DNA of 64,000 bases. Origin: Microlunatus kandeliicorticis. GTDB lineage: Bacteria; Actinomycetota; Actinomycetes; Propionibacteriales; Propionibacteriaceae. Of this stretch, positions 11,375 to 50,816 are shown in pieces (the first letter of the stretch is position 1; each line of letters begins with the position of its first letter). The stretch is taken from positions 1-64,000 of the forward strand of contig NZ_JACGWT010000005.1 in assembly GCF_014137855.1 (NCBI RefSeq), read 5' to 3'. Below the pieces are notes generated by a model. That model searched no databases, was not told where the DNA came from, and worked only from the letters and a program-made list of their open reading frames with translations. The translations under genes and the position numbers were made by a program.

Positions 11375-11875
11375 ATGGCGAGCGAAGCGGTGACCGACGG
11401 CGACCGCGAGGTGCTGACCTGGGACCTCTTCGGCCAGGCGACCCGGGATCTGGCCCATGCGGTGGCCGACGACGGGTGGCACCCGGAGATCGTGTTGTCG
11501 ATCGCGCGCGGCGGTCTGCTGATCGGCGGCGCGCTCGGCTACGCCCTCGACCTCAAGAACACCTTCGTGATGAACGTGGAGTTCTACACCGGGATCGACC
11601 AGCGGCTCGAGATGCCGCGGATCCTGCCGCCGGTGCCCGACTTCGTCGACCTCGCGGACGCCCGGGTGCTGATCGCCGACGACGTCGCCGACACCGGCCA
11701 GACCCTGGCCTCGGTGATCGAGTTCGTGGCCAGCAAGGTCGGGCAGGTCCGCTCGGCGGTGCTGTACGAGAAGCCCCGGTCGCTGGTCCGCTGCGACTAC
11801 GTCTGGCGGCGTACCGACCGGTGGATCAACTTCCCGTGGTCCACCCTGCCGCCGGTGGTGCCGACCGCGGGCTGA
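11375..11875 (+). CDS. Phosphoribosyltransferase, type I fold (purine/xanthine-type)
   Basis: This 166-residue protein of the PRTase type I fold has the PRPP-binding motif VLIADDVADTGQTL near residues 95-108 and an N-terminal SIARGGLLIGGALGYALDL loop. It would transfer phosphoribose from PRPP to a purine-type base. Similar short proteins are annotated as xanthine or hypoxanthine phosphoribosyltransferases, but the hood region that sets base choice is short, so I do not assign the base. ATG is supported by a leaderless -10 box. Its last codons and TGA (GCGGGCTGA) are also the beginning of repeat array A, so the gene end appears to have been set by the repeat. Confidence 0.78.
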   Translation: MASEAVTDGDREVLTWDLFGQATRDLAHAVADDGWHPEIVLSIARGGLLIGGALGYALDLKNTFVMNVEFYTGIDQRLEMPRILPPVPDFVDLADARVLIADDVADTGQTLASVIEFVASKVGQVRSAVLYEKPRSLVRCDYVWRRTDRWINFPWSTLPPVVPTAG

Positions 11876-12131
11876 GCCTGTCGAAGCCCCCGACACCGCA
11901 CCGCGGGCTGAGCCTGTCGAAGCCCCCGACACCGCACCGCGGGCTGAGCCTGTCGAAGCCCCCGACACCGCACCGCGGGCTGAGCCCGTCGAAGCCCCGG
12001 CACGCACCGCGGGCTGAGCCCGTCGAAGCCCCGGCACGCACCGCGGGCTGAGCCCGTCGAAGCCCATCGCACCCCGGGCTGAGCCTGTCGAAGCCCTCGG
12101 CACGCACCGCGGGCTGAGCCTGTCGAAGCCC
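11869..12131. repeat. Array A: eight same-direction copies of the CTGAGCCTGTCGAAG core
   Basis: Eight units begin GGGCTGAGCC(T/C)GTCGAAGCCC at about 11869, 11905, 11941, 11977, 12011, 12045, 12076 and 12111, a spacing of 31-36 bases. Spacers repeat in two families (CCGACACCGCACC and CGGCACGCACC). All copies point the same way. The array fills the space between two convergent genes, so it lies downstream of both. The reading frames across it are artefacts of the repeat. Confidence 0.9.
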
Positions 12132-14574: not shown

Positions 14575-14905
14575 GCACGCGCCCTGAGCCCGGACGAGGG
14601 GCCCTGAGCCCGGAAGAGGTGCCCTGAGCCTGTCGAAGGGCCAACCCACCGTGCCCTGAGCCCGTCGAAGGGCGAGGCCGTTCGCGGCTTCGACAGGCTC
14701 AGCCGGCGTCCCCACGGCTTCGACCGGCTCAGCCGACGTCCCCACGGGCTTCGAAGCGCTCAGCCCACGTCCCAACGGCTTCGACCGGCTCAGCCGGCGT
14801 CTCAACGGCTTCGACGGGCTCAGCCGGCGTCCCCACAGGGTTCGACCGGCTCACCCCAGGTCTCAGCCGGGCTTCGACCGGCTCAGCCCACGTCGGAGCA
14901 GGGTC
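14575..14905. repeat. Array B: two opposed blocks of the CTTCGACAGGCTCAG core
   Basis: From 14575 to about 14675, partial and full copies read CCCTGAG...(CCCTGAGCCTGTCGAAGGG type). From about 14685 to 14905, about eight copies read in the other direction (GGCTTCGACAGGCTCAGCC type), several with CCGGCTC or CGGGCTC variants. The blocks point at each other near 14680, where the flanking copies could pair into one long stem. The array fills the space between the convergent serine hydrolase and tdk genes, and no coding sequence is credible in it. Confidence 0.85.
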
Positions 14906-32702: not shown

Positions 32703-35168
32703 ATGGCCCGAGCACCCCGTACGCCGACCGACGAGCCGACCGAGGAGCCGGCGGAGCGGATCCTCGACGTCGACGTCCGCAACGAGATGCAGAACAGCTT
32801 CCTCGAGTACGCCTACTCGGTCATCTACAGCCGGGCGCTGCCCGACGCCCGCGACGGGCTCAAGCCGGTGCAGCGACGGATCCTCTACTCGATGCGCGAC
32901 ATGGGGCTGCTGCCCACCCGGGGCCACGTCAAGTGCGCCCGGGTGGTCGGTGAGGTGATGGGCAAGCTGCACCCGCACGGCGACGGCGCGATCTACGACG
33001 CGCTGGTCCGCACCACGCAGTCCTGGACCATGCGGCTGCCGCTCGTCGACGGGCACGGCAACTTCGGCTCGCCCGACGCCGGCCCGGCGGCGATGCGCTA
33101 CACCGAGTGCCGGATGGCGCCCTCGGCGCTGGCCATGACCGACGGGCTCGACCAGAACAGCGTCGACTTCGTCCCCAGCTACGACGGCAAGGAGACCCAG
33201 CCGGCGGTGCTGCCGGCCGCGTTCCCCAACCTGCTCGTCAACGGCACCAGCGGGATCGCGGTCGGCATGGCCACCAACTGCCCGCCGCACAACCTGATCG
33301 AGGTGGTGCAGGCCCTCCGGCACCTGCTCCGGCACCCGGACGCGAGCGTCGACGACCTGATGCGGTTCGTCCCCGGCCCGGACCTGCCGACCGGCGGCAA
33401 GATCATCGGGCTGGACGGGATCCGCGAGGCCTACCAGACCGGCAAGGGCACCTTCAAGATCAGGGCGACCGCCCGGGTCGAGCAGACCTCGCCGCGGCGC
33501 AAGGGGATCGTGATCACCGAGCTGCCCTACGGGATCGGCCCGGAGAAGGTGGTCGAGCAGATCTCGGCGGCGGTCAAGGCCAAGAAGCTGCAGGGCATCG
33601 CCGACCTCAAGGACCTCACCGACCTGGCCCACGGCACCCGGCTGGTGGTCGAGGTGAAGAACGGGTTCAACCCGGACGCGCTGCTCGAGCAGCTCTACCG
33701 GTTGACCAAGCTCGAGGACAGCTTCGCGATCAACGCGGTCGCCCTGGTCGAGGGCCAGCCGCGGACGCTGACCCTCAAGGAGCTGATGGAGGTCTACCTC
33801 GCGCACCGGCTGGAGGTGGTGCTCCGCCGGACGACCTTCGAGCGCGACCGGGCCGCCAACCGGCTGCACCTCGTCGAGGGGCTGCTGCTGGCCATCGTCG
33901 ACATCGACGACGTGATCGCGATCATCCGCTCCTCCGAGGACGCGGCCGCGGCGCGGACCCGGCTGATCGAGGTCTTCGACCTGACCGAGGTACAGGCGAA
34001 CTACATCCTCGACATGCAGCTGCGGCGGCTGACCCGCTACAGCAGCATCGAGCTGGAGACCGAGCGCGACGAGCTGCGCGACCGGATCGCCGAGCTGACC
34101 TCGATCATCGAGGACCCGGCGCAGCTGCGGCTGCTGGTCGGCAACGAGCTGGCCGAGGTCGCCAAGCAGCACGGCACCCCGCGCCGGACCATCCTGCTGG
34201 CCTCCACCGGCGTGACCGCGGCGGCGGCCCCGCTCGAGGTGGCCGACGACCCGTGCTGGGTGCTGCTCTCCTCGGCCGGGCTGCTGGCCCGGACCGAGAC
34301 CGCCGACCCGCTGCCGGGGGCGGAGACGGCCGACCAGCGGGCCAACCACGACGTGGTCGTCAGCCGGATCGCCACCACCGCCCGCGGCGAGTTCGGCGTG
34401 CTCACCTCGGCCGGGCGGCTGATCCGGGCGTCCGCGCTCGATCTGCCCACCGTCCCGGTGACCGCGGCCGCCCCGAACCTGCAGGGCGGGGCGCACGTCA
34501 GCGAGCTGCTCGCGGTCGACGGCGGCGAGCGGGTGCTCGGGCTGACCACGCTGGCTCCCGACTCCCCCGGGCTCGCGCTCGGGACCCGGCGCGGCGTGGT
34601 CAAGCGGGTCAACCCCGAGCTGCTGGCCAAGGACAGCTGGGAGGTGATCCGGCTCGACGACGGCGACGAGGTGGTCGGCGCGGTCGAGCTCGACGCCGCG
34701 CACGGCGGCGACCGCGCCGAGCTGGTGCTGATCAGCAACGACGCCCAGCTGCTGCACTTCCCGGCCTCGGTGGTGCGCCCGCAGGGCCGCGGCGGCGGCG
34801 GGATGGCCGGGATCAAGCTGGCCGACGGGGCCGCGGTGGTGTTCTTCGGGGCCGTGCCGGCCGACCGGCCCGGCGCGGTGGTGACCGTGGCCGGGAGCAG
34901 CCGCGCCCTGCCCGGCACCGACGCCGGCAGCGTCAAGATGACCGACCTCGCCGACTACCCGGGCAAGGGCCGGGCCACCGGCGGGGTCCGCTGCCACCGC
35001 TTCCTCAAGGGCGAGGACGTGCTGCTGGTGGCCTGGGCCGGGCCGCTGCCCGCCCGGGCGGCCGCCGCCAGCGGCGCCCCGGTCGAGCTCCCCGAGCTCG
35101 ACCACCGGCGCGACGGGTCCGGCGTGCCCGGCAGCCAGCCGATCGCCGCGGTGGCCAGCGCGGGCTGA
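32703..35168 (+). CDS. parC: Type IIA topoisomerase subunit A (topoisomerase IV ParC-like / GyrA-like)
   Basis: This 821-residue subunit cuts and rejoins DNA in the heterotetramer with subunit B. The catalytic Tyr is Y133 in [10 protein letters not shown]. The quinolone-determining region is [14 protein letters not shown]: Gly95 at the place of GyrA Ser83 and Asp99 at the place of Asp87. The coiled-coil gate and a C-terminal beta-pinwheel domain (from about residue 510) follow. The GyrA-box is not recognised, so ParC-like function is favoured. The partner is the parE-like gene at 43833. ATG has CAGAAT 6 bases upstream. The last codons SAG-TGA merge into repeat array C. Confidence 0.9.
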
Positions 35169-35172
35169 GCCG

Positions 35173-35815
35173 CCCTTCGACAGGCTCAGGGCGCGTTCGG
35201 ACGTCGGCTGAGCCTGTCGAAGCCGCGCACCTGCCCTTCGACAGGCTCAGGGCACGTTCGGACATCGGCTGAGCCTGTCGAAGCCCCCACCTGCCCTTCG
35301 ACAGGCTCAGGGCACCGTTGCGACGTCGGCTGAGCCCGTCGAAGTCCGCCACCTGCCCTTCGACAAGCTCAGGGCACATTCGGCCGCCGGCTGAGCCTGT
35401 CGAAGCCCCAGCCCATCTGCCCTTCGACAAGCTCAGGGCACCGTTGCGACGTCGGCCGAGCCTGTCGAAGCCCCGCACCCGCCCTTCGACAGGCTCAGGG
35501 CACGTTCGGCTGCCGGCTGAGCCTGTCGAAGCCCGCCAACCTGCCCTTCGACGAGCTCAGGGCACGTTCGGCCGCCGGCTGAGCCTGTGGAAGACGCTCA
35601 TCTGCCCATCGACAAGCTCAGGGCACCGTTGCGACGTCGGCTGAGCCTGTCGAAGCCGCCCACCCGCCCTTCGACGAGCTCAGGGCACCGTTGCGACGTC
35701 GGCTGAGCCTGTCGAAGCCGCCCACCCGCCCTTCGACAAGCTCAGGGCACCCTCGGACGCCGGCTGAGCCTGTCGAAGCCCCTTACGCGCCCTTCGACAG
35801 GCTTAGGGCACGGAA
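35173..35815. repeat. Array C: eleven forward and ten reverse copies of the 15-base core, period about 62 bases
   Basis: Forward cores (CCCTTCGACAGGCTCAGGG type) begin near 35173, 35233, 35293, 35357, 35420, 35481, 35543, 35605, 35668, 35729 and 35791. Between them lie reverse cores (GGCTGAGCCTGTCGAAGCC type) near 35208, 35269, 35330, 35391, 35456, 35517, 35579, 35641, 35703 and 35765. Each forward/reverse pair can form a stem of up to 15 base pairs with a loop of about 18-20. Loops come in two families, one with CACGTTCGGC and one with CACCGTTGCGACGTCGG. The layout resembles a REP/BIME element. The array lies between convergent parC and the peptide-binding protein gene. Confidence 0.93.
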
Positions 35816-35859
35816 AGACGAAACGCCCCACCGACCCGGGGAACCGGATCGGCGAGGCG
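35814..35859 (-). terminator. Rho-independent terminator of the peptide importer operon
   Basis: On the minus strand CGCCTCGCCGA (35849-35859) pairs over its full length with TCGGTGGGGCG (35824-35834), including two G-U pairs, and is followed by a T-rich tract (TTTCGTCTTT, 35814-35823). It lies 15 bases after the binding-protein stop. Confidence 0.8.
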
Positions 35860-35874
35860 CTTCGCAGCTGCAGA

Positions 35875-37740
35875 CTAGCCGCTGACCGGCTCGAGCTTGC
35901 CGTTCATCATCCAGAGGATGACGTTGTTGTCGCCGTAGAGCGAGTTCAGCGCGATCGGGTCGCTGGCCGGCGGGAACTCCTTGACCCGCTTGCCGTTGAG
36001 CGCGGGGCAGTTGCCGTAGCGCTCGAACATCGGGAGCAGCGGGAGCAGCTCGTTGAAGACCTGCGCCAGCTTCTCCACGTTCGCCTTGACGGCGTTCTCG
36101 TCCAGACCGCTGCCCGAGGCGGTGATCAGCTTCTGGATGTCGACCTCGCCGAAGCCCGAGGTGTTGGTCTTCAGCTGGAAGTCCATGCCCTTGCCACCCT
36201 GGTTCTGGGTGATCGGGTAGTTGTTCGTCAGGAACGCCTGGACGAAGCTGAAGTACGGGTACGGCTGGGTCGAGTTGCCCCAGCCCTGGATGGCCAGCTC
36301 GAAGTTGCCCTTGGCCACGTCGATCGGCTCCTGGGTGGAGACCACGCCGCGGAGTTCGATCTTGATGCCGAAGTTGGTGAGCTGGTCGGCGATGTCCTTG
36401 GCGCAGGCGCTCCAGTCGGCGTAGTCCGACGGGTACTCCAGCTGGTAGCTGGCCGTCTTGCCGCTCGGGGTCTGCCAGCTCGACCCGTTCTTCTTCCAGC
36501 CGGCCTCGGTCAGCAGCTGCGCGGCCTTGTTCGTGTCGTAGTCGTAGGTGTCGAGCTTGCCCTTGACGTCGGCACTGAGCCAGTTGTCGACCAGGTTGTC
36601 GGAGAACCCGCACATGTACTTGGCCCCGATGCCCGACGGGCCGAGCGAGGCGGTGCCGTTCTGCGCCCGGTTGATCGCGCAGGCGATGCCCTGCCGCGCC
36701 TTCGCGTTGCCGAACTCGCTGAGCTTCGCGAAGTTGAACAGCATGGCCGGGCCGGAGTACGTCGGCGGCTTCATGGTCTGGTAGCCGATCGCCTCGAACT
36801 GCTTGGTCGAGGCCACCGGGAACCCGTAGGTGCCGTAGTCGAGGTCCTTGCTCAGCACCAGCGGGGTGACCGCAGGGGTCTCGCCGTTGTAGAGCAGGAT
36901 CTTGTCGAACTTCACCGTGTTGGCCGCGTAGCCGGTCGAGTTCTTGACCAGGGTCAGCTGGGTGTTGTTGATCGTGCTGTACTCGATCTGGAACGGCCCG
37001 CTGACCACGTACTCCTTGGGCGCGAACTTGACCAGGTCCTGGTTGAGCGACTTGGCCTCGCTGGAGTTGGCGAAGTCGCCGGTGATCTTCTGCGCCTTGT
37101 CGGCGTAGTCACCGTAGACCGAGGTCGGGATGATCGTGCTGCGCAGCAGGTAGCGCTCGACCACCATCGCCGGCTGGTTCATCTTCATGGTGAAGGTGGT
37201 GTCGTCGGGCGCCGACACCTCGCTGATGTAGTCCCACAGCGGCGAGTTGAGGATCCGCTGCACCCAAAAGGTGGTGACGTAGTCCTTGGCGGTCAGTGCC
37301 GAGCCGTCGCTCCACTTGAGCCCGCTCTTGACCTTGACGGTGTAGGTGTTGCTGGCCTTGTCCAGGCTGTAGCTGTCGGCCAGGAACAGCTCCCACGTCC
37401 CCTCCTTCCAGTGGTAGTAGCCGGTCGGCGGGCAGAGCAGGTCGATGTAGATGCCGCCGCCGAGGATGGCGTTCGGGATGCCCACGTAGGGGTTGCCCGC
37501 GACGTTGTAGTTGCCCTGCGGCGACTGCAGGTAGGGCCAGCCGCCGTTGAACTGGGCGGTCCCCCCACCGCCACCGTTGCCACCGTTGCCACCGCTGTTC
37601 GACGGAGCGGCCGGCGAGCAGCCGGCGGCGACCGCGCCGACACCGGCGACGCCGACCGTGGACAGACCCACCAGCTGCAGCAGGCTGCGCCGGGTGATCG
37701 GGGTGGGGGTCGGGACGGGTCCCGGGGTTGGTTCGGTCAC
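35875..37740 (-). CDS. Dipeptide/oligopeptide ABC transporter substrate-binding lipoprotein
   Basis: This 621-residue protein of the SBP_bac_5 group has a twin-arginine-like signal (ITRRSLLQLVGLS) and a lipobox AAGC, so it is a lipid-anchored extracellular protein. A Gly/Asn-rich spacer follows the Cys. The body has the typical YTVKVKSGLKWSDGSALTAKDYVTTF motif. GTG at 37740 overlaps the stop of the small membrane protein gene (GTGA) and has a strong AAGGAGGA ribosome site. It delivers peptides or similar ligands to the two permeases encoded upstream. A Rho-independent terminator follows. Confidence 0.92.
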   Translation of the reverse strand: MTEPTPGPVPTPTPITRRSLLQLVGLSTVGVAGVGAVAAGCSPAAPSNSGGNGGNGGGGGTAQFNGGWPYLQSPQGNYNVAGNPYVGIPNAILGGGIYIDLLCPPTGYYHWKEGTWELFLADSYSLDKASNTYTVKVKSGLKWSDGSALTAKDYVTTFWVQRILNSPLWDYISEVSAPDDTTFTMKMNQPAMVVERYLLRSTIIPTSVYGDYADKAQKITGDFANSSEAKSLNQDLVKFAPKEYVVSGPFQIEYSTINNTQLTLVKNSTGYAANTVKFDKILLYNGETPAVTPLVLSKDLDYGTYGFPVASTKQFEAIGYQTMKPPTYSGPAMLFNFAKLSEFGNAKARQGIACAINRAQNGTASLGPSGIGAKYMCGFSDNLVDNWLSADVKGKLDTYDYDTNKAAQLLTEAGWKKNGSSWQTPSGKTASYQLEYPSDYADWSACAKDIADQLTNFGIKIELRGVVSTQEPIDVAKGNFELAIQGWGNSTQPYPYFSFVQAFLTNNYPITQNQGGKGMDFQLKTNTSGFGEVDIQKLITASGSGLDENAVKANVEKLAQVFNELLPLLPMFERYGNCPALNGKRVKEFPPASDPIALNSLYGDNNVILWMMNGKLEPVSG

Positions 37741-37943
37741 GAATCCTCCTTGCTTCGGGTCGGGCGCACACCGCACCGGACCATGACTATGGCGAGTCCG
37801 ATCAGGACGAGTCCCATCGCCAGGCTGGCGATGGTCAGCACGAACTGGGCCGTGCCGGGACGGACGATCAGGAGACACAGCAGCGACATGCCGGTCAGCA
37901 GGCTGCCGCCGGTCATCGCGGTCTTGCCGAGGGCGACGATCAC
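37737..37943 (-). CDS. Small two-helix membrane protein inside the peptide importer operon
   Basis: This 68-residue protein has two hydrophobic helices (about 10-30 and 34-56) and a short basic tail (RCGVRPTRSKEDS). The GTG start at 37943 overlaps the ATPase stop, and its TGA overlaps the GTG of the binding-protein gene. It is therefore translationally coupled on both sides. I do not recognise it. Its place suggests a small subunit or chaperone of the importer. The tight 4-base overlaps on both sides argue that it is real. Confidence 0.7.
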   Translation of the reverse strand: MIVALGKTAMTGGSLLTGMSLLCLLIVRPGTAQFVLTIASLAMGLVLIGLAIVMVRCGVRPTRSKEDS

Positions 37944-39010
37944 GAGGTGCTCGTGGCCCCGGCCGGTTCGGGCGGGCGGATCCGGTCACCCGGGTGCCCG
38001 TCCTCGCGTTGGACGACGTGGCAGGAGACGCTGCGCCGGGCCACCGGCGCCAGCGCGGGCTCCTTCACGTCGCAGAGCCCGTCCTCGGCGATCGGGCACC
38101 GGGGGTGGAAGCTGCAGCCGCTCGGCAGGTTGGCCAGGCTCGGGATCTCCGCGCTCTTCAACCCCCCGCCCTCGAGCTTGCGGGCCGCCGCGTCGGGGTC
38201 GGGCTCGGGGACGGCGTCCAACAGCGCCCGGGTGTAGGGGTGCTGCGGGTTGTTGATCACCTCGGGGGTCGGGCCGTACTCGACCACCTTGCCCAGGTAC
38301 ATCACCGCGGTCCGGCCCTGCCAGCCGAAGTACTTGGCGATGGCCAGGTCGTGGGTGATGAACAGGAAGCCGACGCCGAGGTCGTCGCGCAGCGAGCCCA
38401 GCATGTTGAGCATGGCCACCCGGATCGACACGTCGAGCATCGAGGTCGACTCGTCGGCGATGATCAGCTTGGGGTCCAGCGACAGCGCCCGCGCCACCGC
38501 GACCCGCTGCCGCTGGCCGCCGGAGAGCTGGTGCGGGAACTTCGACAGGTAGTTCTCCGGCGGGGTGAGGTTGACCCGGCGGAGCAGCTGGGTGGCCTGC
38601 TCCCAGGCCTCCTTGCCGTTCTTGGCCAGCCCGTGCTTGCGCAGCGGCGCGGTCAGCGTCGCCTCGACGGTGCGGATCGGGTTGAGCGAGGCGTACGGGT
38701 CCTGGTGGACGTACTGGACGGCGGTCCGGAAGTTCCCGAACCCCGCCTTGTCGAGGCTCCAGATGTCCTGGCCGTCGTAGGAGATCGTCCCGGCGGTCGG
38801 CTTGGACAACCCGGCCGCCATCCGGGCGGTGGTGGTCTTGCCGCAGCCGGACTCCCCCACCAGGCAGAGCACCTCGCCGGCGTTGACGGTCAGGTTCACC
38901 CCGTCGACGGCGGGCAGCGTGGCGTGCTTGGTGGTGAAGATCTTCGAGACGTCGCTGATCTCCATCAGCGCGTGCGAGCTCTTCGCGTCGTGCTCGGTGT
39001 GCTCAAACAT
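37940..39010 (-). CDS. Peptide ABC transporter ATP-binding protein (DppF/OppF-type)
   Basis: This 356-residue ATPase has Walker A GESGCGKTTTAR, signature LSGGQRQRVAVARALS and Walker B LIIADESTSMLD. The C-terminal oligopeptide-transporter region contains HPYTRALLDAVPEPDP and four Cys positions in CSFHPRCPIAEDGLC...SCHVV that in related transporters form a metal or iron-sulfur site. It overlaps the previous ATPase gene by 8 bases. ATG at 39010 is used; the GTGA overlap at its end couples the small membrane protein gene. Confidence 0.93.
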   Translation of the reverse strand: MFEHTEHDAKSSHALMEISDVSKIFTTKHATLPAVDGVNLTVNAGEVLCLVGESGCGKTTTARMAAGLSKPTAGTISYDGQDIWSLDKAGFGNFRTAVQYVHQDPYASLNPIRTVEATLTAPLRKHGLAKNGKEAWEQATQLLRRVNLTPPENYLSKFPHQLSGGQRQRVAVARALSLDPKLIIADESTSMLDVSIRVAMLNMLGSLRDDLGVGFLFITHDLAIAKYFGWQGRTAVMYLGKVVEYGPTPEVINNPQHPYTRALLDAVPEPDPDAAARKLEGGGLKSAEIPSLANLPSGCSFHPRCPIAEDGLCDVKEPALAPVARRSVSCHVVQREDGHPGDRIRPPEPAGATSTS

Positions 39011-43077: not shown

Positions 43078-43097
43078 GCCGCCGCGACCGGGGCGGC

Positions 43098-43136
43098 GGG
43101 GCGGACCGTCGGGGCGGACCGTCGGGGCGGACCGGC
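43098..43136. repeat. Three tandem copies of a 13-base GC repeat
   Basis: GGGGCGGACCGTC occurs twice and GGGGCGGACCGGC once, head to tail, followed by a partial copy. The repeat lies between the divergent phosphatase and flavin reductase genes. It may be a product of slippage, and no binding protein can be named. Confidence 0.7.
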
Positions 43137-43172
43137 GGGGCGGGGCCTTGTCCGCCGTGGTCTGCTGTGGCC

Positions 43173-49142: not shown

Positions 49143-50816
49143 GTGAGGACCGTCTCCCGGCTCCGGCCGGTCGCCCGCCGCAGGTTCGGCCGCCGGTTGC
49201 TGCCGGCCTCGGTGACCGCGGTGGTCGCGGTGGTCTGCACACTGGCCGTCGTGGTCGGCTTCCTCACCGTCCGCCCGGACCGTGCCGTGGCGGCGACCTC
49301 GGGCTGGTTGCGGACGTCCGGGGCGACGATCACCACCGCCGACGGCCGGCCGTACGTGATCAAGGCCGTGTCCTGGTTCGGGATGGAGACCGCCAACTGC
49401 GCTCCGCACGGGCTGTGGCAGATCGGCCTCGACGCCGGGATGGCCCAGATCGCCTCGTTCGGCTTCACCACCATCCGACTGCCGTACAGCAACGAGTGCC
49501 TGGCCGGGTCGAGCACCAGTGGCATCGACGCGAGCAAGAACCCGGGGCTGGTCGGCAAGACGCCGCTGCAGGTGATGGACGCGGTGATCGCCTCCGCCCG
49601 CGCGCACGGGCTGACCGTCATCCTCGACCGGCACCGGCCGGACTCCGGGTCGCAGTCGGCGCTCTGGTACACCTCCGCCTGGTCGGAGCAGCGCTGGATC
49701 GACGACTGGGTGATGCTGGCCAAGCGCTACCGGAACGACCCGACGGTGATCGGCGTCGACCTGCACAACGAACCGCACGGCACGGCGTGCTGGGGGTGCG
49801 GGGACCGGAGCCGCGACTGGGCGGCCGCGGCCACCCGGGCCGGCAACGCGGTGCTGGCCGCCAACCCCAACCTGCTGATCGTCGTCGAGGGCGTCGAGCA
49901 GCAGGGCAACAACCAGGCCACCTGGTGGGGCGGCGGACTGGCCGACGTGGCCGCCCACCCGGTGGTGCTCTCGGTGCCCAACCGGGTCGTCTACTCCCCG
50001 CACGACTATCCCGCCTCGATCTACCCGCAGCCGTGGTTCTCCGCGGCCGACTACCCGGCCAACCTGGACCGGGTGTGGACCGCGAACTGGGGCTACCTGG
50101 TGCAGCGGAACATCGCGCCGGTGCTGCTCGGCGAGTTCGGGACCAGGTTGCAGACCGATACGGACCGGCAGTGGCTGACCCGGCTGGTCGGCTACCTGAA
50201 GACGAACCGGATCAGCTTCGCCTACTGGTCGTTCAACCCGAACAGCGGTGACACCGGGGGGCTGGTCGGCGACGACTGGGTCACCCCGCAGCGCGCCAAG
50301 CTCGACGCCCTCGCCCCGATCCTCGGCCGGTCGGCCCCGACCAGCGGCCCGTCCACTCCTGCCCCGAGCAGTCCCGCTCCCAGCAGCCCGGCACCCAGCA
50401 GCCCGGCACCCAGCAGTCCAGCACCCAGCAGCCCGGCACCCAGCAGCCCGGCACCCAGCAGCCCGGCACCCAGCAGCCCCACCCCGAGTGCCCCGCCGAG
50501 CAGCGGTGCGCCGAGCAGCGGTGCGGCGACGGCCAGCTGGCAGCTCAGCTCGTCGTGGAACGCCGGGTACGTCGCGCAGCTGACCGTCCGGGCCGGTTCC
50601 ACCGCCAAGAACGGCTGGAGCGTCAGCTGGGCCGACCCGTCGGCGACCGGAGTGGCCAACGCCTGGGGCATGACCTGCGCGGTGGCGTCCGGGCGGGTCA
50701 CCTGCACCGGGGCGGACTGGGCCCGGACCATCCCGGCCGGACAGAGCGTCACCGTCGGGCTGCAGGCGAACTCGCCGGGCCCGGCCCCGCAGTCCCCGGT
50801 GTTGACCCTGCGCTGA
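49143..50816 (+). CDS. Secreted glycoside hydrolase family 5 enzyme with PAPSS linker and CBM2-like domain
   Basis: This 557-residue protein has a basic N-terminus and a membrane/signal helix (TAVVAVVCTLAVVVGFL), then a GH5 catalytic domain (about 55-395). The proton donor Glu is in GVDLHNEPHG near 209 and the nucleophile Glu in LLGEFGT near 330, with LDRHRPD earlier. A linker with eight PAPSS repeats follows (about 405-445) and then a beta domain from about 463 resembling a cellulose-binding CBM2 (WQLSSSWNAGYVAQLTV, WSVSW). It should cut a beta-glucan such as cellulose or mannan outside the cell. The CBM2-like part is short. GTG is supported by a leaderless -10 box. Confidence 0.87.
   Translation: MRTVSRLRPVARRRFGRRLLPASVTAVVAVVCTLAVVVGFLTVRPDRAVAATSGWLRTSGATITTADGRPYVIKAVSWFGMETANCAPHGLWQIGLDAGMAQIASFGFTTIRLPYSNECLAGSSTSGIDASKNPGLVGKTPLQVMDAVIASARAHGLTVILDRHRPDSGSQSALWYTSAWSEQRWIDDWVMLAKRYRNDPTVIGVDLHNEPHGTACWGCGDRSRDWAAAATRAGNAVLAANPNLLIVVEGVEQQGNNQATWWGGGLADVAAHPVVLSVPNRVVYSPHDYPASIYPQPWFSAADYPANLDRVWTANWGYLVQRNIAPVLLGEFGTRLQTDTDRQWLTRLVGYLKTNRISFAYWSFNPNSGDTGGLVGDDWVTPQRAKLDALAPILGRSAPTSGPSTPAPSSPAPSSPAPSSPAPSSPAPSSPAPSSPAPSSPAPSSPTPSAPPSSGAPSSGAATASWQLSSSWNAGYVAQLTVRAGSTAKNGWSVSWADPSATGVANAWGMTCAVASGRVTCTGADWARTIPAGQSVTVGLQANSPGPAPQSPVLTLR
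50358..50477 (+). repeat. Tandem 15-base repeat encoding the (PAPSS)8 linker
   Basis: Eight units of 15 bases, most reading CCGGCACCCAGCAGC, encode PAPSS repeats in the linker of the GH5 enzyme. The near-identity of the units suggests recent slippage, so the copy number probably varies between strains. Confidence 0.9.

Follow-up and report, generated by a model that had tools for sequence, protein, structure and literature searches.

The array that separates a topoisomerase gene from a convergently transcribed solute-binding protein gene in Microlunatus kandeliicorticis is probably a BIME-like cluster formed by local amplification of a non-autonomous, REP/REPIN-like mobile element without a RAYT. 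It lies in the 64,000 nucleotides analyzed here (positions 1 to 64,000 of contig NZ_JACGWT010000005.1, referred to below as the window), and its repeat unit is NN-CT-[TCGAC NR GCTC]-AG-N'N' followed by a conserved CG, a unit that often occurs as inverted doublets. This reading draws on the copy number of the repeat, its placement between convergent genes, its covarying arms and 13 slowly changing core positions, as well as on sporadic bursts among species, orthologous sites without an array, and the presence of the same core in Pseudomonadota. Counting against it are the lack of a detectable mobilizing enzyme, the weak hairpins of single copies and the missing distance gradient among units of the array; a pure doublet element is additionally disfavored by the 19 of 32 sampled loci that are direct arrays or single copies.

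Architecture and Constraint of the Repeat

The observation at the window array is confirmed. A core search recovered 21 copies at 35175-35806, all with two mismatches or fewer, in the strictly alternating order +-+-...+ with 11 forward and 10 reverse copies; for randomly ordered copies in these numbers, the chance of strict alternation is 1 in 352,716. The window as a whole contains 36 matches at this threshold, compared with 0.12 expected and a maximum of 1 in 100 shuffles. Successive forward copies are 60-64 bases apart and successive reverse copies 61-65, in agreement with the period of about 62 bases given in the original prediction, and the two loop families described there were also recovered: four of the ten forward-to-reverse spacers are one identical 19-mer, and the remaining six form an 18-base family. 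The arms are GCC/GGC on the forward copies and GG/CC on most of the reverse copies, with two of the ten reverse copies (35330 and 35579) departing from this. The core of this array is CTTCGACAGGCTCAG, with 11 of the 21 copies exact (4/11 forward, 7/10 reverse). As the forward copies often differ at core positions 8-9, the core is better given as CTTCGACNRGCTCAG, with 13 of its 15 positions fixed. The BIME-like architecture and the local amplification of composite units are both supported. Adjacent units have an identity of 0.845 and nonadjacent units of 0.849; this lack of a distance gradient gives no sign of recent duplication one unit at a time.

The array takes up most of the space from the end of the topoisomerase gene at 35168 to the end of the convergent gene at 35875 (table 1). 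Two further arrays occur in the window: the eight listed core copies of the second, spread across 11872-12128, are all reverse, and the third (14624-14888) has further degenerate units beyond its seven listed copies, which span 14624-14886. Separate tandem repeats were also noted, with 15-base units at 50367-50529 (7.5 and 2.4 copies), whose length is divisible by three and which may lie within a coding region, and a 13-base unit at 43097-43143 (3.6 copies, 97% match).

Table 1. Genes and Repeat Features in the 64-kb Window
Feature	Coordinates	Strand	Basis
DNA gyrase/topoisomerase IV subunit A (type II topoisomerase)	32703..35168	+	PF00521; NF004044 above cut-off
Family 5 extracellular solute-binding protein, convergent; start codon uncertain	35875..37989	-	PF00496
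Alternating array with 62-base period, 21 copies, pairing arms, two kinds of inner spacer	35172..35812	.	Core search, spacing
First forward copy, arms GCC/GGC	35175..35189	+	Core search; doublet fold with 35208-35222
First reverse copy, arms GG/CC, differing from forward copies	35208..35222	-	Core search, arms
Remainder of gap from array to stop of convergent gene, without core copy	35813..35874	.	Core search
Second array, 8 direct copies, period about 31-36, convergent gap	11864..12131	-	Core search
Third array, 7 listed copies (2 -, 5 +), period about 30, convergent gap	14624..14888	.	Core search

Outside the core, the two arm bases on each side mostly pair despite changing identity in six genomes and the plasmid set, with CC/GG, CG/CG, GG/CC, GC/GC, and CA/TG all observed. 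When each of 86 loci (6 genomes, 9 plasmids) was represented by a single copy drawn at random, the fraction of Watson-Crick pairs at -1/+1 was 0.91 compared with 0.49 after shuffling (maximum 0.66), and at -2/+2 it was 0.91 compared with 0.58 (maximum 0.69). It should be noted that the first arm pair is nearly invariant C-G in two of these genomes (G018 and G010), where only the second pair is informative. Pairing is weaker at the third outer position (0.50 vs. 0.33 shuffled) and absent at the fourth (0.25 vs. 0.23). Among 195 copies with up to three mismatches, departures from the core fall at position 8 (66) and position 9 (36), with 2 to 25 at each of the other positions, the larger of these at positions 1, 2, 6, and 14. 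Most actinobacterial copies carry a CG at +5/+6 (among 139 distinct copies of the own genome, 132 have the C and 109 the G), and in the plasmid copies the CG is mostly found at +7/+8 (15/16 and 14/16), often inside GAACGG. In outline, a short stem of free sequence carries an apical stretch that is fixed, and a brief motif follows as a tail. Two copies on a Moraxella osloensis plasmid (L323, at 1472 and 1507) have G at position 1, which is compensated by C15 in one of them, with its neighbor keeping G.

That each copy can also fold alone was upheld, but these folds are weak: six single copies gave z values from -1.7 to +0.6. Copies pair far better with their neighbors, as had been proposed, with the first inverted doublet (35175-35189 and 35208-35222; 58 nt) reaching z -6.7 as DNA; as RNA, a doublet gave z -4.8 and the whole gap z -8.1 (20 shuffles). 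These strong folds, and the fact that arrays start and finish close to the stop codons of the convergent genes, would suit bidirectional terminators or mRNA 3'-end stabilizers folding in both converging transcripts, a role that we nevertheless regard as improbable. In the first 80 nt after the stop codon, occupied convergent ends (n = 42) have a median z of +0.71 with 21% under -2, and unoccupied ends (n = 92) a median of -0.06 with 13% under -2, so occupied ends are not clearly more hairpin-prone in this test, whose 40-nt windows would miss doublets. Furthermore, direct arrays that lack any inverted partner make up 11 of the 32 loci, and Rfam gave no match within the 64-kb window. A simple terminator reading is not supported by the 80-nt test, in which occupied ends are no more hairpin-prone than shuffles.

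Since adjacent units of a tandem array share an ancestor, a core without function would be expected to drift as fast as the spacer. For the own genome, adjacent copies were compared at 12 loci holding 13 same-strand arrays (the window array being entered once per strand): differences were found at 12/468 of the 13 fixed core positions and at 142/623 spacer sites (P = 7e-25; the comparisons are not independent, and P values are indicative), with 15/72 at positions 8-9 and 12/144 at arm sites. The fixed core bases thus differ about nine times less than the spacers, whereas the central dinucleotide behaves like spacer. Six arrays of other genomes gave 7/117 for the fixed core, 3/18 for positions 8-9, 3/36 for the arms, and 10/33 for the spacers, and in the window array mean pi is 0.023 over 26 fixed-core columns compared with 0.302 over 20 spacer columns. 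Degenerate in-register copies with up to seven mismatches were added (three were found), and the register of the window array has no missing site; the mismatch limit is therefore unlikely to have created the contrast between core and spacer. The spacer-like behavior of positions 8-9 argues against the core simply being converted as a whole and in favor of recognition at the remaining 13 positions, and the contrast as such suggests that every copy is kept to a given sequence. A passive amplification in tandem of neutral DNA, in which the core would not be recognized at all, could account for the many neighbor spacings and for spacers being common locally; we consider it very improbable in view of this contrast within the same arrays and of the dispersed loci, which have little in common beyond the core, the pairing arms and the CG tail.

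Genomic Placement and Sporadic Distribution

The own genome (4,302,690 bases in 9 contigs) contains 755 exact matches to CTTCGACNRGCTCAG, 408 forward and 347 reverse, compared with none for the reversed control pattern, and the expected genome-wide abundance of the core is thus borne out. For the analysis of placement we used 464 kb, consisting of the window and 400 kb chosen partly around hits, so that the density of the 153 core copies at 32 loci found there is not unbiased. Gaps were classed with a purpose-made gene caller based on codon usage, with no reference annotation: 149 of the 153 copies lie in called intergenic gaps, 1 in a called gene, and 3 are unclassed. Placement is nonrandom, as had been anticipated, with 21/67 convergent gaps occupied but only 7/256 unidirectional and 1/66 divergent ones (convergent against the 8/322 others, Fisher odds ratio 17.9, P = 7e-12); the sole occupied divergent gap spans 1.2 kb, and a gene may be missed there. 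The prediction of many alternating arrays at convergent ends stands for the placement, but strict alternation is not typical and, with at least four copies, is seen at 4 of the 32 sampled loci; 13 loci have inverted neighbors, 11 consist of direct repeats only, and 8 are single copies. A strand bias along the chromosome was discarded, both strands being present past 0.43 Mb of contig 1.

Two arrays about 40 kb apart (L161, 3247-3429, and L163, 3658-3836) have 86% identity over 187 aligned bases, spacers included, indicating that arrays may be copied as multi-unit blocks. An assembly artifact or contamination, for which nothing speaks beyond the repetitiveness itself, is hardly credible, given that many loci of the own genome have arrays, with differing periods, and that other species have them too, among them the single-contig assemblies G018 and G010.

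Convergent gaps in the own sample have a median length of 229 when occupied and 32.5 when unoccupied, and the median in G006, a nearly repeat-free relative, is 30.5. G019 is a poor comparison: the gene caller covered only 68% there, the median of its convergent gaps came to 77, and one of them was scored as occupied. We compared the loci of 18 same-genus relatives, each with 1.5 kb of flank, and found the solute-binding gene facing the topoisomerase gene in four of them (G005, G006, G011, and G012). Two of these, G006 and G012, have the same two convergent genes with their stops 25 and 13 bases apart and no core copy; the gap is longer in G011, again without a core copy, and also in G005, which has one core copy with arms GGGTC/GACCC. 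Set against the 229 bases of occupied gaps, the short unoccupied ones make the arrays look like additions to otherwise minimal gaps. Between G018 and G010, which are 88% identical over their aligned parts, ten sites were judged by eye on alignments: five are occupied in both species, four in a single species (in one case the match may be due to chance), and one is represented in the other species by a degenerate remnant. One core copy in G010 (C1, around base 119,526 of 200 kb; L317) lies in frame within a coding region, and the encoded protein is about six residues longer than its G018 orthologue, which does not have that stretch. On alignment this copy looks like an insertion, though the flanking bases have changed too; neither a target-site duplication nor a clean insertion boundary was established.

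At least 30 copies are present in 20 of 146 genomes, the own genome included. The own genus, represented by 20 genomes, includes 14 with 32 to 755 copies and 6 with 0 or 1. Outside this genus, bursts were observed in single sampled species (G082, G084, G035, G073, G034, and G137), of which G034 is the only sampled member of its genus and G137 belongs to another family of the order. Copy numbers differ sharply within genera, with 431 in G082 compared with 0, 8, and 20 in its congeners, 161 in G084 compared with 0, 0, and 1, 278 in G035 compared with 0 and 0, and 164 in G073 compared with 0 and 0; the genera g9, g12, g15, g17, and g31 each include a single sampled species with 104 to 431 copies, the others having 0 to 20. 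A phylum-wide sample of 396 genomes contained more than 10 copies only in G000 (755) and G432 (37). In the 12-mers of 200 kb each from G019 and G006, no other shared gene-gap repeat stood out.

The core with pairing arms was also found on plasmids of Sphingomonas, Sphingobium, Novosphingobium, Comamonas, Variovorax, Nitratireductor, Methylotuvimicrobium, and Moraxella, and the core occurs in Sinorhizobium with less well paired arms. Of the nine plasmid records searched, all but the Moraxella record have exact matches, and inverted pairs 35-94 bases apart account for 56 of these 85 copies. A phage collection gave no core match; viral contigs contain at least 120 core stretches, many of them without pairing arms and possibly due to chance.

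The main rival explanation is that the core serves as a binding or cleavage site for a chromosome-organizing protein at convergent ends, for which gyrase would be the first candidate by analogy with Escherichia coli BIME-2. Such a site would fit the convergent placement, the fixed core with a central dinucleotide left free in arrays and the occurrence of the same core in two phyla; in E. coli, gyrase cleavage sites are overrepresented in BIME-2 according to passages of PMC6379681, and the text of PMC2817692 states that BIME-2 binds gyrase strongly. We consider it unlikely as the explanation of the family. With the six same-genus genomes having 0 or 1 copies and the nearly empty congeners of burst species in five further genera, such a host role cannot be general, and the gyrase signal at E. 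coli BIME-2 is reported in the same passages of PMC6379681 to rise under a transcription block, which does not favor an involvement of converging transcription. Nevertheless, gyrase or a nucleoid protein could act at convergent ends alongside a RAYT-less element.

Candidate Enzymes and a Proposed Model of Spread

The search for a RAYT-like transposase proposed in the original prediction was negative: a Y1_Tnp domain was detected neither in the own genome nor in its 19 same-genus relatives, by a search that recovers E. coli and four others of the 14 control genomes. The domain occurs in 6 of 146 genomes, and among the 20 genomes with at least 30 copies only in G082. The Y1_Tnp genes examined in G082, G027, and G058 are enclosed by long inverted repeats of a different sequence. 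These RAYT-like genes of relatives (L125, L126, and L129) have inverted repeat families of their own, with units around GGGGACGGTTCC or AAGGGGACNGTCCCCTT that differ from the present core. With up to two mismatches allowed, the core is absent within about 1.5 kb of 13 Y1_Tnp loci (10 of the 21 from the genome search and all 3 plasmid loci), and three weak matches with three mismatches, found at 2 of those 10 loci, are not credible copies. The Novosphingobium plasmid W06 has three Y1_Tnp copies with no core within 1.5 kb, and the other eight records, covering plasmid sequence only, have no Y1_Tnp. A RAYT as the mobilizer is not supported for the genus, and the three Y1_Tnp loci examined for repeats are flanked by other ones.

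Besides Y1_Tnp, the enzyme classes covered were reverse transcriptases (RVT_1) and IS110 transposases, in 40 chosen genomes of which 20 have at least 30 copies and 20 have 20 or fewer. RVT_1 was found in 10/20 genomes of the first group and 7/20 of the second, with 10/14 burst genomes compared with 2/6 others inside the genus and 0/6 compared with 5/14 outside it; for IS110 the numbers are 13/20 and 8/20. Neither class tracks copy number overall in these 40 genomes, and both were set aside as mobilizers. G033 has 19 IS110 matches, many of them near contig ends at the same offset, resembling a repeated element that breaks the assembly. A transposase located between close repeats was also discarded: the proteins between four near-locus pairs read as ordinary metabolic or regulatory genes, a judgment made by reading, with the family search covering only four window genes among them.

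For the RAYT-less mobile element we propose the following course. The fixed core, most likely in the form of a single-stranded hairpin, would be recognized by a trans-acting factor and copied to new places, where insertions would survive mainly in short gaps between convergent genes, sparing promoters and operons. Local slippage or unequal recombination could then turn a doublet, as in the window array, or a single copy into a tandem array, and continued recognition would keep the core from drifting. More tentatively, and with some doubt, we suggest that the repeats might form a cross-phylum class of hairpin repeats with the fixed apex TCGAC NR GCTC and a freely changing stem, recognized by an enzyme other than RAYT/Y1 that would enter species sporadically and cause bursts of hundreds of copies. 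The spread of the core over phyla may reflect transfer or a common recognition factor. With its defined recognition sequence and related species that have hundreds or almost no copies, the family provides a comparative handle, and the complete gene contents of burst species and their nearly empty congeners could name the missing factor.

Comparison with Known Repeat Systems

REPs are described in the text of Nunvar et al. (PMC2817692) as abundant imperfect palindromes, and BIMEs as their alternating, regularly spaced arrangements, tied to RAYTs. The present repeat resembles the BIME-2/REP sequences of E. coli and Stenotrophomonas, as they appear in that text, in its hundreds of extragenic palindromes, alternation with regular spacing, complementary stem changes, and clusters with common inter-repeat segments. 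Its 755 copies exceed the 100 per genome expected of REPs and BIMEs, nearly all sampled copies (149/153) are extragenic, and the covarying arms represent an imperfect palindrome with kept complementarity; regular alternation characterizes the window array. It differs in that no RAYT was found in the genus and no cognate RAYT flanked by the repeat in any of the 20 same-genus genomes, the own genome included, in the apical stretch being fixed and the stem variable, and in direct-repeat arrays being common. The hairpin foot also has no GT[AG]G, the motif that the text of PMC6006769 discusses together with RAYT subclasses, some of them with atypical REPs: it was found in fractions of 0.04 and 0.01 of 274 copies (two strands), and its frequency within 8 nt is not above that of shuffles. 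Similar to the REPINs of Pseudomonas, as outlined in parts of PMC8049555, the repeat forms hairpin-capable inverted doublets with diverse spacers and probably disperses non-autonomously, but it has no detectable cognate RAYT, and single copies and direct arrays are frequent: inverted partners within 100 bases are found for the 56 of 85 plasmid copies, and the 32 own loci divide into 13 inverted, 11 direct, and 8 single.

Di Nocera et al. (PMC3733652) split REPs into GTAG and CGTC superfamilies in their main text, in which the string "actinobacter" does not occur. The CGTC-tagged REPs (CGTC-1 to CGTC-4) are described there as lying near the 3' ends of ORFs, including convergent gaps, with some intragenic copies and no known dedicated transposase, all of which brings them close to the present repeat. 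According to the same text they carry a CGTC tag, their loops measure 4-5, and their stems of 8-9 bp almost always start with A-T pairs, whereas here about 4-5 bases are paired around an 11-base apical stretch, pairing weakens at the third outer position and is lost by the fourth, and CGTC (or TGTC, CCTC) is found at the foot in fractions of 0.01 and 0.05 of 274 copies. The descriptions of the CGTC families thus set the repeat apart from them, while identity with a CGTC consensus given in a figure is possible. In the open-licence PMC text, figures apart, papers containing core strings deal with other matters to judge by title and abstract, and no account of an actinobacterial REP with a RAYT or of a palindromic repeat in Microlunatus was found, although a prior description is possible. 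As the repeat combines the general features of REPs and BIMEs with neither tag and no RAYT, we call it REP-like and place it outside both tagged superfamilies, GTAG and CGTC.
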